Below, piece after piece: positions 4,578 through 34,581 of a DNA stretch of 35,010 bases. The notes under the pieces are model-generated. The model saw only the letters and a list, made by a program, of their open reading frames with translations. It was not told where the DNA came from and ran no database searches. The translations under genes and the position numbers were made by a program. Origin of the DNA: an uncultured Nitratifractor sp. (GTDB lineage: Bacteria > Campylobacterota > Campylobacteria > Campylobacterales > Sulfurovaceae); assembly GCA_947311565.1 (NCBI GenBank), contig CAMZLH010000004.1, positions 1 to 35,010 on the forward strand, read 5' to 3'. Each line of letters opens with the position of its first letter. Position 1 is the first letter of the stretch.

Positions 4578-4578
4578 C

Positions 4579-4628
4579 TATTTGGGCTTTTGCCCGAATA
4601 ACTTGTATAAAATTTTTTAATTTTATAC
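4579..4628 (+). terminator. Tandem hairpins between pstS and pstC
   Basis: First hairpin: TATTTGGGC (4579-4587), TTTT loop, GCCCGAATA (4592-4600), nine pairs with one G-U. Second hairpin: GTATAAAATT (4605-4614), TTTT loop, AATTTTATAC (4619-4628), a perfect 10-bp stem. Neither is followed by a long U tract. They probably cause partial termination or protect the 3' end of a processed pstS message. Confidence 0.6.
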
Positions 4629-4685
4629 TTCTTTACAAGCTCTAAAATATAACTTAAACAATAAAAGAGAAAAAGGCATTAACTG

Positions 4686-11172: not shown

Positions 11173-11177
11173 ATTTT

Positions 11178-11256
11178 AGCCCCTTTGGGGCTTTGGTTTC
11201 TAGCTATAGTTCTTTAGCCTTGCCTAAAGTTTGAGTTATTTCAAACCTAAGCTAAA
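11178..11256 (+). terminator. Hairpins between dctP and dctQ
   Basis: AGCCCC (11178-11183), TTT loop, GGGGCT (11187-11192), followed by TTGGTTTC, forms a compact terminator-like hairpin six bases after the dctP stop. A second, nested structure follows: TTTAGC (11213-11218) with GCTAAA (11251-11256), enclosing GTTTGA (11229-11234) with TCAAAC (11241-11246). Partial termination would give excess binding protein over the membrane subunits. Confidence 0.6.
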
Positions 11257-11331
11257 ACTTTTGGCGATACTAAAGTCTTACTTCCTAATAGTGAAACACG
11301 AAAACTAATAACTTAAAAATCAAGGATATGA

Positions 11332-17227: not shown

Positions 17228-17917
17228 CTAACCACCTAAATATTTAGCTCTAACATCATCATTTCCAATAAGTTCATCTGCCCTACCCCCTAACTCTATA
17301 GAGCCATTTTCTAATACATATCCATAATCTGCAATTTTCAAGGCTGCAAATGCATTTTGTTCTATTAGTAATATTGGTATCTCTTTTTTTAGTTCAGTTA
17401 CTATTTCGAAAACTTCACCAATTATCTTTGGAGCAAGCCCTAAACTTGGTTCATCTAACATTAACATTTTTGGCTTGCTCATTAAAGCTCGTCCTATTGC
17501 TAACATCTGCTGCTCACCACCACTTAAAGTTCCACCAAGCTGAGACTTTTTTTTCTTTAATCTTGGAAATTTATCATAAACTTCAGATTTAAAATTCTCG
17601 AAACCTTCATTATTAAAAGCACCCATTCTTAAATTCTCATCTACTGTTAAATTTATAAATATCTTTCTGCCCTCTGGAACAAGTGCTAAACCACTCTTTA
17701 TAATATTATGAGTTTTCACTCTAGATATATCTTTATTATTAAAAATTACTTTTCCACTTTTTTTAATAACATTTACAATAGAGTTAAGAGTAGATGTTTT
17801 TCCAGCACCATTAGCACCTATTAAAGTTACTAATTGGCCACTTTGAACATCTAAACTTATATCTCTCACTGCCGAAATAACTCCATAATTAACTTCTAAA
17901 TTCTCTACTCTAAGCAT
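17228..17917 (-). CDS. livF: Branched-chain amino acid ABC transporter ATPase LivF
   Basis: 229 residues. Walker A GANGAGKT (34-41), signature LSGGEQQMLAIGRAL, Walker B MLMLDEPSLGLAP and terminal LIEQNAFAALKIADYGYVLENG, all typical of LivF. Partner of LivG in powering branched-chain amino acid uptake. AGGAG lies nine bases before the ATG, inside the end of livG, with an eight-base overlap. Last gene of the liv operon. Confidence 0.95.
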   Translation of the reverse strand: MLRVENLEVNYGVISAVRDISLDVQSGQLVTLIGANGAGKTSTLNSIVNVIKKSGKVIFNNKDISRVKTHNIIKSGLALVPEGRKIFINLTVDENLRMGAFNNEGFENFKSEVYDKFPRLKKKKSQLGGTLSGGEQQMLAIGRALMSKPKMLMLDEPSLGLAPKIIGEVFEIVTELKKEIPILLIEQNAFAALKIADYGYVLENGSIELGGRADELIGNDDVRAKYLGG

Positions 17918-18680
17918 GGCTAAAGTCTCCTAAATATGCTGATACAACTTTTTTATCAACAATTGCATCAGCTGGTTTACCTTCAAATATTTTCTCTCCG
18001 TAATCAAGTACTGTTAGTTTATCACACATCTTATTTACAAACTTCATATCGTGTTCTATAAGTAAAACTGTTAAGTTAAATTTATCTTTTATTTTAAATA
18101 TAATATCAGCTAGATCACTTGTTTCATTCGAATTCATACCAGCTGCTGGCTCATCTAGAAGTAGTAAAGTTGGATTTGTTGCTAATGCTCTTGCTATTTC
18201 TACTTTTCTTTGAACACCATAGCTAAGATCAGTAGCTTTACTATCAGCAAATTCAGTTAATCCAAAAATTTCTAAAAGCTCTTTAGCTTTCTTATCTATA
18301 AACTTCTCTTGTTTAAAGTATCTAGGTAGTCTAAAAATAGCCTCTAAATAACTATATTTTGCTTGCGCATCAAAACCTATAAGGATGTTATCTAAAACAC
18401 TCATACTCTTAAAGAGTCTAATATTTTGAAAAGTTCTAGCTACTCCTTTGTAGACAATTTTATTGGGTTTTGTGCCAGTTATATTATTACTCTCAAGTAA
18501 AATTTTACCCTCAGTAGGGTATAAATTTCCTGTAATTATATTGAATATTGTAGTCTTTCCAGCACCATTTGGTCCTATAAGACCATATATCATACCTTTT
18601 TCAACCTCAAAACTTAGATTATCTATAGCAGTCACACCACCAAATTGCATAGTTACGCCATCTATTTTTAAAAAACTCAT
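17910..18680 (-). CDS. livG: Branched-chain amino acid ABC transporter ATPase LivG
   Basis: 256 residues. Walker A GPNGAGKT (36-43), VARTFQNIRLF Q loop, the family-specific signature LSYGVQRKVEIARAL in place of LSGGQ, Walker B LLLLDEPAAGMN and LIEHDMKFV with the switch His. LIEHDM and DEPAAGMN are LivG hallmarks that distinguish it from LivF. The start overlaps the livM stop by four bases. Confidence 0.95.
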   Translation of the reverse strand: MSFLKIDGVTMQFGGVTAIDNLSFEVEKGMIYGLIGPNGAGKTTIFNIITGNLYPTEGKILLESNNITGTKPNKIVYKGVARTFQNIRLFKSMSVLDNILIGFDAQAKYSYLEAIFRLPRYFKQEKFIDKKAKELLEIFGLTEFADSKATDLSYGVQRKVEIARALATNPTLLLLDEPAAGMNSNETSDLADIIFKIKDKFNLTVLLIEHDMKFVNKMCDKLTVLDYGEKIFEGKPADAIVDKKVVSAYLGDFSHA

Positions 18681-19690
18681 TTTTTACTCTTTTTAAAGAA
18701 ATCTAAAAGCTCTCTATCACCTAGTAAGCCTCTTCTTGCAAATAGCATTACTACTATTAATATAACTGAAAATATTACCATTCTCAGTCCCGGATGTGCT
18801 TCGTTACCTAAACCTAGAATATTTGGCTCATCTAAAAATCTAAGTGCTTCCATACCAACCATTACTAAAATTGTTGCAATGAGTGTCCCACTCATACTTC
18901 CAAGTCCACCAAGTACAACAATAATTAAGAGTTGGAATGTTAATAAGAAACTAAACTGATCTGGCGTAATTGTTGTAATTAAAACGGCTAAGAGTCCTCC
19001 ACCAATACCTTCAAAAAATGCACTAGTCATAAAAGCCAAAGTCTTAATTTTAAATGTATTTATACCCATAGCTGTCGCTGCATCTTCATCATCTCTAACA
19101 GATTTCATTGCTCTTCCATACTTAGAGTATATTATATTTAACATAACAATAAAGGTTATCAACAGTATTCCACCAACCCAATAAAAGTTGATGCTGCTAC
19201 TAATATCATTTAAACCCATAGCTCCATTTGTAAACTCTGGATTATTAATTGCAAATATTCTAATAATAAATCCAAAGCCAAGAGTTACTATTGCTAAATA
19301 GTCTCCCCTTACTCTAAATACAGGAAGTGATAACAACAAAGCAATTATAGTTGCAGCCACACCACCAACTAAAAGTGCAATTGCTAAAGAGCCAGTATGC
19401 ATACTAAGCACTATAGGAGATGGATCTACAAGTGCATACATATCTATTTTAGACTCTGTTGATAGTAGTAAAATAGCTGTAAAATAAGCTCCAATTGCAA
19501 CAAAGCCATTAGGTTCCAAAGAGAACTGTCCTGTAACTCCATTAATCAAGTTATAACTAAGTGCTAAAATAGCATATATTCCAATTGTATTTATCAAAAA
19601 CATTTTATAAGAGCCAAAAACATCTCCTGCAAAATAGATAAATGCAACTGCCACTGCTATAAATATACTATTTCTTACTAAACTGCCCAT
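18677..19690 (-). CDS. livM: Branched-chain amino acid ABC transporter permease LivM
   Basis: Inner-membrane permease with about eight or nine hydrophobic segments. YNLINGVTGQFSLEPNGFVAIGAY and VRGDYLAIVTLGFGFIIRI are typical LivM sequences, as is the coupling loop GRAMKSVRDDEDAATAMGIN. Two in-frame ATGs occur at 19696 and 19690; AGGAG abuts the first, so the second, six bases away, is preferred (337 residues). The N-terminal residues MGSLVRN lead straight into the first membrane helix. Follows livH with a gap of a few bases. Confidence 0.93.
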   Translation of the reverse strand: MGSLVRNSIFIAVAVAFIYFAGDVFGSYKMFLINTIGIYAILALSYNLINGVTGQFSLEPNGFVAIGAYFTAILLLSTESKIDMYALVDPSPIVLSMHTGSLAIALLVGGVAATIIALLLSLPVFRVRGDYLAIVTLGFGFIIRIFAINNPEFTNGAMGLNDISSSINFYWVGGILLITFIVMLNIIYSKYGRAMKSVRDDEDAATAMGINTFKIKTLAFMTSAFFEGIGGGLLAVLITTITPDQFSFLLTFQLLIIVVLGGLGSMSGTLIATILVMVGMEALRFLDEPNILGLGNEAHPGLRMVIFSVILIVVMLFARRGLLGDRELLDFFKKSKK

Positions 19691-19699
19691 CTGCATCTC

Positions 19700-20593
19700 C
19701 TAAAATCTTGATCGTTCTAAATCTTCACCCATAATTCCAGTTGGTCTAAATAGAAGAACCAAAATTAAGAAGAAGAATGCAAAGGCATCTTTATACCCAC
19801 CAAGTTCAGGGAACATTGCTACTACAAATATCTCTGTAAATCCTAAAATAAATCCACCTAAAACTGCTCCTGTAACACTACCAATTCCACCTAAAACAGC
19901 AGCAGCAAAAGCCTTTAATCCAACTATTATACCCATAAGTGGATCAATAGATGGATAGCTAACTGCATAGAATATACCTCCAATTGCTGCAAGCGAAGAG
20001 CCAATAATAAATACAATCATAATTATTCTATCTGCATCTACACCCATTAACTTAACTGTTGGTATATCAAATGCTAATGCCCTAATTGCCATACCATATT
20101 TAGTTTTGTATAGAATATATAGTATAAATGTCAATATCAATACAGTAACTATTGGAATTATTATTACTGATATGGGTAGGTATATCTCTCCTACATGAAA
20201 AACTTTAGTTAAATACTCAGGAGCATTAAATGCTTTAGGTGTAGCACCAAAAAGAACAATAAATAGATTCTCTAAAAAAAAGCTAATACCAATAGCTGTA
20301 ATTAAAAGTGATATTTTAGGTGCATCACGAAGTGGTTTATAAGCTATCTTATCTGTCATTACACCAATAAAAGCAGATCCAACAATTGCTAATAGCACAG
20401 ATAGCTCAAATGGTATTCCTGCACTATATCCAAATAGAGTCAAGAATGCACCTACCATCATAAAGTCACCATGTGCAAAGTTAATAAGTCGTAAAACTCC
20501 ATACACCATTGTATAACCAATAGCTATTAGAGCATACATACTACCTAAGCTAGCACCATTTACTAACTGTTGTAAAAAGATAGAAAAATCCAT
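19700..20593 (-). CDS. livH: Branched-chain amino acid ABC transporter permease LivH
   Basis: 297 residues with about eight membrane segments. GASLGSMYALIAIGYTMVYGVL followed by INFAHGDFMMVGAF is the classic LivH N-terminus. The EAA-type loop RALAFDIPTVKLMGVDADRI and the glycine-rich AAAVLGGIGSVTGAVLGGF follow. AGGGGG precedes the ATG. A 96-base gap with two hairpins separates it from livJ. Confidence 0.95.
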   Translation of the reverse strand: MDFSIFLQQLVNGASLGSMYALIAIGYTMVYGVLRLINFAHGDFMMVGAFLTLFGYSAGIPFELSVLLAIVGSAFIGVMTDKIAYKPLRDAPKISLLITAIGISFFLENLFIVLFGATPKAFNAPEYLTKVFHVGEIYLPISVIIIPIVTVLILTFILYILYKTKYGMAIRALAFDIPTVKLMGVDADRIIMIVFIIGSSLAAIGGIFYAVSYPSIDPLMGIIVGLKAFAAAVLGGIGSVTGAVLGGFILGFTEIFVVAMFPELGGYKDAFAFFFLILVLLFRPTGIMGEDLERSRF

Positions 20594-20606
20594 AAAATCC
20601 CCCTAA

Positions 20607-20658
20607 AGTAATCTTATATATATTATATCCAGATTAAACTAATATATATAAGATTACT
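20607..20658 (-). repeat. 19-bp perfect inverted repeat in the livJ-livH gap
   Basis: AGTAATCTTATATATATTA (20607-20625) and TAATATATATAAGATTACT (20640-20658) are perfect reverse complements with a 14-base loop. In the minus-strand transcript it lies just upstream of the livH ribosome site. Its upstream arm overlaps the hairpin at 20654-20685 by five bases. Confidence 0.75.
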
Positions 20659-20685
20659 CAAAGGTGCCAAAGCACCAATGAGTAA
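20654..20685 (-). terminator. Hairpin directly after livJ
   Basis: TTACTCA (20654-20660) pairs with TGAGTAA (20679-20685), and inside it GGTGC (20663-20667) pairs with GCACC (20672-20676) around a CAAA loop, with a symmetrical 2x2 internal mismatch. It begins four bases after the livJ stop and is followed in the transcript by TCTTATATAT. It is likely to act as a partial terminator or mRNA stabiliser. Confidence 0.65.
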
Positions 20686-20689
20686 CTAT

Positions 20690-21817
20690 TTATGGATTTA
20701 CAGTCGTTTTATATGCAAACTTTCCATCTTTTACTGCATTTACTACAGCTGATTTTACTGAGTCACCATCTTTATTGATAGTAATAACACCCGTAATACC
20801 TTTATAATCTTTTGTAGATCTTAAGTTAGTATTTATACACTCTTTATCGTCACTTTGCTTTTTATCTGCAATACACTTATTCATTGCAGCTATAATCATG
20901 CCATACGCATCAGCTGCAAGAGCACCCATTGAGTCTGCAGTTTTACCATTAAATTTCTTGTGATATGCTTCAACGTAAGCTTTTGCTTCTGCTGATGCTG
21001 CAGCTGCTTCATTAAAGTGATCTGTATACATAAAACCTTCTGTTGCTTTACCACCAATTTTAACAAGCTCTGGAAATCCAACACCATCAGCACCAATAAA
21101 TGGAGATTTAAGACCCATATTTCTTGCTTGTTTTGCTAAAAGTGCAGCCTCATTATAGTAACCAGTAAATGCAATAATATCAGGGTTAGCAGCTTTAATA
21201 CTTGCAACTTGTGCATTAAAATCTTTATCACCAGAGTTTATTAAAACAGTTTTTACAATTTTACCACCAGATGCTTCATAAGCTTTTTTGAAAGCTTTTG
21301 ATAATCCTACAGAGTAGTCTTGCTTAGCATCTGTTACAACAACTGCTGAATTTAATCTATTGTCTAGTGCATATTTAGCCATAACAGCACCTTGGAATGG
21401 ATCTATAAAACAAGCTCTTGTAACATATTTTTTACCCTTAGTAACTCTTGGGTTAGTAGATGCATGAGTGATCATAGGTGTTTTAGCTTTCTCTGCCACT
21501 GGTGCCATTGCCATAGAGTTAGAGCTAGCAACTTCACCTAAAATTACACTTACTTGATCTTTATCTAAAAGCTTTTTAACTGATGTAGCAGCCTCTACTT
21601 TATCACTTCTATCATCAACAATAATTAACTTTACACTATCACCATTGCTTAGTTTACTATTTTGTTCATGAGCAACTTCTAGTCCTTTTTTACTTGTCTC
21701 TCCAAATGCAGCAACTCCACCGGTAAGTGGTAAAACTACACCTATCTTAACCTCTTTAGCAAAGCTAATTCCACTCATTAATGCAGCAGCTGCCACAAAA
21801 CTTGTTAAACTTTTCAT
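20690..21817 (-). CDS. livJ: Branched-chain amino acid-binding protein LivJ/LivK
   Basis: 375 residues with a Sec signal peptide (MKSLTSFVAAAALMSGISFA). Type I periplasmic binding fold: VKIGVVLPLTGGVAAFGETSKKGLEVAHEQN, VILGEVASSNSMAMAPVAEK, PMITHASTNPRVT, then DAKQDYSVGLSKAFKKAY and AFTGYYNEAALLAKQAR. These are the conserved ligand-pocket regions of leucine/isoleucine/valine-binding proteins; related proteins bind other amides or amino acids, so exact substrate is not certain. First gene of the liv operon; GATAAT (21858-21853) is a possible -10 box and AAGGAG precedes the ATG. Confidence 0.92.
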   Translation of the reverse strand: MKSLTSFVAAAALMSGISFAKEVKIGVVLPLTGGVAAFGETSKKGLEVAHEQNSKLSNGDSVKLIIVDDRSDKVEAATSVKKLLDKDQVSVILGEVASSNSMAMAPVAEKAKTPMITHASTNPRVTKGKKYVTRACFIDPFQGAVMAKYALDNRLNSAVVVTDAKQDYSVGLSKAFKKAYEASGGKIVKTVLINSGDKDFNAQVASIKAANPDIIAFTGYYNEAALLAKQARNMGLKSPFIGADGVGFPELVKIGGKATEGFMYTDHFNEAAAASAEAKAYVEAYHKKFNGKTADSMGALAADAYGMIIAAMNKCIADKKQSDDKECINTNLRSTKDYKGITGVITINKDGDSVKSAVVNAVKDGKFAYKTTVNP

Positions 21818-34509: not shown

Positions 34510-34581
34510 TTATTAGTAGTTACTTTAACTCTATTTTTTAAAATTAGAGTTAAAGTAAAGTTGCATCTATATTATCTTTAA

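Follow-up and report, generated by a model that had tools for sequence, protein, structure and literature searches.

We analysed a 35,010-nt stretch of DNA (hereafter the window) from an uncultured Nitratifractor sp. (contig CAMZLH010000004.1), focusing on the intergenic region between livJ and livH in a predicted operon for branched-chain amino acid transport. On the minus-strand transcript the two genes are separated by 96 nt, from the livJ stop codon at 20690 to the livH ATG at 20593, and this gap is occupied by two hairpins. The first, hp1, is compact and begins 5 nt after the livJ stop codon; the second, hp2, is longer, abuts hp1 and ends 13 nt before the livH ATG (Table 1). The original prediction, made from the same DNA, had placed both hairpins and the five bases that they share (20654-20658) on the minus strand, and its coordinates all proved correct when checked against the sequence. 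As judged by comparison of sequences from relatives, the two-hairpin pair is real and conserved in architecture, while its sequence is not conserved.

Table 1. Features of the livJ-livH region and of two further transporter gaps in the window.
Feature	Position	Strand	Basis
livJ, branched-chain amino acid binding protein (Peripla_BP_6)	20690..21817	-	open reading frame (ORF); Pfam PF13458, E 1.8e-50
hp1, compact hairpin, 7 + 5 pairs, 2x2 internal loop; proposed livJ 3' guard/weak internal terminator	20654..20685	-	fold
Five bases able to pair in hp1 or hp2, branch-migrating, isoenergetic	20654..20658	-	fixed-register folding
hp2, perfect 19-bp inverted repeat, 14-nt loop, abuts hp1; proposed livHMGF 5' guard/processing signal	20607..20658	-	fold
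TATAAT, possible -10 box of internal livH promoter	20622..20627	-	sequence; motif enrichment tested at class level
AGGGGGA, likely livH ribosome-binding site, unpaired in fold	20598..20604	-	sequence and fold
livH, permease (BPD_transp_2)	19700..20593	-	ORF; Pfam PF02653, E 1.4e-42
livM (18677-19696), livG (17910-18680), livF (17228-17917)	17228..19696	-	ORFs; names from gene order and translations
pstS-pstC gap, hairpins 4579-4600 and 4605-4628, layout as livJ-livH	4578..4685	+	fold; family assignments
dctP-dctQ (tripartite ATP-independent periplasmic, TRAP) gap, two predicted hairpins 11178-11192 and 11212-11275, 19 nt apart	11173..11331	+	fold; family assignments

The sequence of hp1, read from 20685 to 20654, is TTACTCA-tt-GGTGC-tttg-GCACC-tt-TGAGTAA, and the arms of hp2 span 20658-20640 and 20625-20607. 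The gap as a whole folded with -32.4 kcal/mol (z -6.2), a value that no dinucleotide shuffle equalled (0/200, and 0/300 in a repeat run); taken singly, hp1 and hp2 had z scores of -6.9 and -5.7, respectively. Perfect inverted repeats of at least 19 bp with arms at most 40 nt apart were represented in the window by hp2 alone, and none occurred in 10 shuffled windows. The repeat scan also detected a further perfect inverted repeat of about 14 bp (TTACTTTAACTCTA) near the window end, at 34520-34560. The search of the window against Rfam families and riboswitches gave no match at gathering score, by which a known RNA family or riboswitch was ruled out. A livJ riboswitch candidate in the literature, mostly from Streptomyces, precedes LIVBP genes (PMC11109978), and the livJ-livH element is therefore different. 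A REP-type (repetitive extragenic palindromic) or mobile repeat was also rejected, the gap matching its own genome at one place and its own palindrome only (E <= 0.001).

For the comparison with relatives, 232 loci were gathered from named GTDB genomes and other genomes of the order Campylobacterales; 12 of 141 matching genomes were left out, ten belonging to family f15 and two having livH at a contig edge. Outgroup and secondary-hit loci were skipped and 16 loci were dropped (no livJ, or a contig edge), and livJ was upstream of livH in 187. Removal of 41 gaps shorter than 40 nt and 45 near-identical gaps left 101, and removal of five longer than 260 nt gave a set of 96 non-redundant gaps. Hairpins of -6 kcal/mol or better were counted as strong, and those at most 5 nt apart as abutting. 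At least one strong hairpin was present in 94 of the 96 gaps, at least two in 69 and an abutting pair in 57. The corresponding values were 74%, 16% and 10% for shuffled gaps, and 41, 8 and 3 of 53 control gaps (delimited by ORFs of at least 80 amino acids, and so perhaps including a few false ones; 55 minus the pst and dct gaps of the window itself). Counted by genome, the abutting pair occurred in 50 of 128, in three families (f1, f8 and f20), and hairpins spaced 6-20 nt apart in 7 more; Campylobacter gastrosuis (L077) is among the named loci with the pair. Outside Campylobacterota, the first hairpin was found in 13 of 13 folded gaps, two hairpins in 3 and an abutting pair in none.

The gaps were aligned in three groups, namely A1 (20 of 22 Arcobacter-type gaps, L142 and L146 being left out for their longer loops), A2 (all 16 Sulfurospirillum-type gaps) and A3 (all 7 gaps near the window); a GC-rich group (7), a second Sulfurovum-like group (5) and 9 further gaps stayed outside the alignments. 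Both hairpins covary in A1, with 95.4% of cells paired, changes on both sides in 16 of 27 pairs and a covariation score of 0.305, compared to 0.157 for shuffled and 0.051-0.081 for slid alignments (0/500 shuffles as high). In A2, covariation was detected for hp2, with both-side changes in 9 of 16 pairs and a score of 0.395 compared to 0.178 for shuffled and 0.062-0.136 for slid alignments (2/500 shuffles as high). The original prediction had named a lack of covariation in orthologous gaps as one result that would speak against it; covariation in these two groups is strong. Since the A3 alignment was too poor for this analysis, arm swaps were used in place of direct covariation for the genus of the window. 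Over 66 gaps, hp2 arms paired with a mean of -17.8 kcal/mol with their own partners and of -5.5 kcal/mol when swapped between species.

In 64 of the 96 gaps the better fold was that of the transcribed strand and not of its complement (p 2.7e-5, where p-values overstate independence, the rows being related species), whereas the controls were split 28 to 27; among the two-hairpin gaps, the sense strand was better in 53 of 66. The better folding of the transcribed strand implies that selection acts on RNA, and what these relatives have preserved is its shape. The alternative that hp2 is a DNA operator palindrome has in its favor the perfect 19-bp inverted repeat itself. However, no word is conserved across relatives, G-U oppositions in hp2 far exceed A-C oppositions (101 vs 22), and the strand preference is that of a transcript, all of which makes an operator extremely improbable. 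As the hp2 regions used for the opposition counts had been picked on the sense fold, the strand test over all 96 gaps is the fairer one.

The hairpins had been described in the original prediction as partly exclusive, such that the folding of one would weaken the other and could switch between termination after livJ and read-through. Exclusivity holds for the five shared base pairs, but not for the cores. The minimum-energy fold of the gap contains hp1 and hp2 together, with pairing probabilities of 0.95-0.97 for the GC core of hp1 and 0.98-1.0 for the inner 13 pairs of hp2. The six registers for dividing 20654-20658 (0 to 5 bases each way) range from -28.9 to -29.7 kcal/mol, a spread of 0.8, and both cores stay paired across these isoenergetic registers. 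A switch would draw on the shared bases, which are not peculiar to the window: in 43 of the 57 abutting-pair gaps (window included) the hairpins, each folded alone, overlap by at least 3 nt. Chimeras joining hp1 of one species to hp2 of another overlap to this extent in 68% of 1496 cases, and the overlap of the helices is roughly what abutting hairpins give anyway. Furthermore, hp2 lies downstream and is synthesised after the decision point at hp1, and hence cannot decide termination at hp1 or act as an antiterminator. In an attenuator the structures are exclusive and the competitor is made before the terminator, whereas here the hairpins coexist and the would-be competitor is the downstream one. 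Given also that hp2 is not followed by a U-tract and that a terminator scan found nothing at the livJ-livH gap, a termination/read-through switch via the shared bases is very improbable. The second function suggested in the original prediction, the setting of the livJ to livHMGF ratio, fits the sequence evidence.

Such a ratio could also be set by hp1 alone, acting as a leaky intrinsic terminator of constant strength, with hp2 being secondary. Single internal terminators have this role in Clostridia, where they determine how much binding protein is made relative to translocator (PMC9045158). The livJ-livH element resembles these terminators, as described for the ABC (ATP-binding cassette) importers of cellulolytic species, in its place directly after the binding-protein gene, and hp1 resembles their type IV in its poor U-tract and the unpaired region in the middle of its stem. 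The presence of a strong first hairpin in nearly all Campylobacterales gaps, and in every folded gap outside Campylobacterota, agrees with this explanation, as does the T content next to hp1 of 6-8 of 8 in 20 listed Arcobacter-type gaps, a canonical U-tract. In the window, however, the T content after hp1 is 5/8, and in near relatives 1-6/8, which is no better than at random gap places, and the terminator scan missed hp1. The Clostridia paper describes single stem-loops without further structure, and ABC importers only, whereas at livJ-livH a longer AT-rich hairpin abuts the first, and TRAP operons carry hairpin pairs too. A leaky terminator acting alone leaves hp2 unexplained, and we consider it rather unlikely, although weak termination may occur at hp1. 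As a separate observation on hp1, the exact word TTTACATGTAA occupies its tip in 13 of the 16 Sulfurospirillum-type gaps (A2; e.g., L143, L152, L156, L170 and L177), possibly as a protein site or a favored loop; the similar word ACATGT is found within hp2 of L078, L079 and L140.

An internal promoter for livHMGF, with the hairpin being incidental or an operator, would account for the TATAAT at 20627-20622, inside the window's hp2. The TANAAT motif is present in 35 of 66 hp2 gaps, compared to 14.9 +/- 2.9, and TATAAT is mildly enriched (10 vs 4.4). An extended -10-like motif occurs in 14 of 30 gaps without hp2 against 1.5 expected, but it is not enriched in the hp2 gaps (5/66 vs 3.5), and a promoter has no need for covarying arms or for a better fold of the transcribed strand. 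For the gaps with hp2 this explanation is therefore improbable, while the enrichment in gaps without hp2 suggests that in some lineages an internal promoter probably stands where the second hairpin is retained in others. Several gaps without hp2 (L041, L045, L046, L056, L118 and L133) have in common an AATTATG...TTAAGATAT block before livH, which is promoter-like.

Two further borders between binding-protein and translocator genes in the window, pstS-pstC and dctP-dctQ, carry predicted hairpin pairs (Table 1). Two hairpins are present in 8 of the 53 control gaps; in relatives, they were found in 13 of 21 dctP-dctQ gaps (p 1.3e-4) and in 7 of 16 pstS-pstC gaps (p 0.033). Loci without a recognisable downstream gene (12 of 30 for pst, 4 of 30 for dct) had been left out, and the -6 kcal/mol threshold misses the second hairpin of the window's own pst gap. 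A fourth border in the genome of the window (L236, G000:C20) consists of an SBP_bac_8 gene, a 178-nt gap and an ABC ATPase gene, and the gap contains two hairpins, one of 9 bp and one very long (about 27 bp). The pair is not at every border, as the other binding-protein genes examined overlap the next gene or are followed by short or unstructured gaps.

We lean, with modest confidence, towards the interpretation that the livJ-livH pair is an mRNA segmentation element at the binding-protein/translocator border, with the livJ:livHMGF ratio set by processing and stability. In the cip-cel operon of R. cellulolyticum, paired consecutive stem-loops, with cleavage close to or between the two, guard the upstream 3' and downstream 5' ends, and addition or deletion of a second stem-loop changes the downstream mRNA (PMC10311766). 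The likeness to this two-stem-loop processing in Clostridium lies in the consecutive pairs in several intergenic regions, the guarded ends and the background of 5'-to-3' exonuclease (PMC10311766; PMC4423207); the differences are another operon and phylum, and hairpins that here abut (0-5 nt), with cleavage as a proposal. In selective RNA processing and stabilisation (SRPS) stem-loops stand after the gene needed in excess, and in the livJ-livH gap they stand after the gene for the binding protein, the component in excess according to PMC9045158. In E. coli, five ABC operons including malEFG keep the binding-protein segment longer (PMC5927463). The malE-malF protective structure is likewise located between binding protein and permease, with the upstream segment stabilised; it differs in being RNase E based, and the passages of PMC5927463 describe no second abutting hairpin. 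In the genome of the window, RNase J and RNase Y were found, and RNase E/G gave no match, as is likewise reported for Campylobacter and Helicobacter (PMC8687705). In searches of an open-access library (subscription papers not covered), we found no prior report of this two-hairpin element in Campylobacterota. The SroC (gltI-gltJ) region likewise places a structured RNA between the genes of a binding protein and a permease, as at livJ-livH; it differs by its released small RNA.

From the precedents in Clostridium, Clostridia and E. coli, we read hp1 as a 3' guard and hp2 as a 5' guard or processing site. In this mechanism, a monocistronic livJ mRNA would have its 3' end marked by hp1 and protected there by a block to 3'-to-5' exonucleases, perhaps with weak termination. 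At the 5' side of livHMGF, hp2 would either keep RNase J away from a processed 5' end or itself serve as a double-stranded processing site for RNase III. The net outcome would be an excess of livJ mRNA over livHMGF mRNA that is fixed by the structures rather than switched by branched-chain amino acids. The role of hp1 as the livJ 3' guard is better supported than that of hp2; the exact role proposed for hp2 is tentative and rather doubtful, and the acting nuclease and its site of action are inferred. A variant in which RNase III cleaves the double-stranded hp2, so that livHMGF decay is initiated and livJ is trimmed back to hp1, is consistent with hp2 stems of 10-26 pairs (median 18), as RNase III acts on duplexes of 11-20 bp and has an intramolecular duplex among its substrates in Campylobacter jejuni (PMC8687705). 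Several hp2 stems contain internal mismatches, however, and we consider this variant unlikely.

Several observations weigh against segmentation by the pair. One hairpin only is present in 24 of 128 genomes and gaps shorter than 40 nt in 38 of 128, so that many relatives lack hp2; in genus g34 (family f10), the gaps are shorter than 40 nt in 20 of 20 genomes. The window's own hp2 aligns poorly to its nearest relatives (A3), and the covariation is thus that of other clades. The antisense strand folds better for 17 of the 66 hp2. With a spacing of 0 nt, RNase Y would find little unpaired RNA to cleave between hp1 and hp2. Real gaps slightly exceed the chimeras in overlap and in its energy cost (mean 4.5 vs 3.3 kcal/mol), a difference that we judged too small to build on. 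At the other borders, the dctP-dctQ gap of the window has weak hairpins (z -2.5), and pstS-pstC taken alone is weak as well, with an abutting pair in 3 of 16 gaps (p 0.13).

An open and general question is how a single operon yields binding protein in large excess over membrane translocator. Answers known so far involve either single internal terminators or protective structures linked to RNase E, whereas the element described here is a specific hairpin pair, present in both ABC and TRAP operons of a phylum with RNase Y and RNase J. It is possible, though we would not count on it, that the pair represents a general boundary module of Campylobacterota at the junctions of LIV (branched-chain amino acid), Pst, TRAP and SBP_bac_8-type ABC operons. 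Such a module would be selected for structure only and would have originated repeatedly with unrelated sequences, RNases Y, J and III doing the job of E. coli RNase E and REP-like structures, and in some lineages it would have been swapped for an internal promoter or lost. The constant shape and fast sequence turnover of the two-hairpin element offer a natural panel of variants for mapping hairpin strength to protein ratio. Among the dctP-dctQ gaps of relatives, some (e.g., L318 and L321) contain very strong hairpin pairs, and those of L298 and L299 are full of CATTAGTCATTGG-like word repeats that pair with one another.
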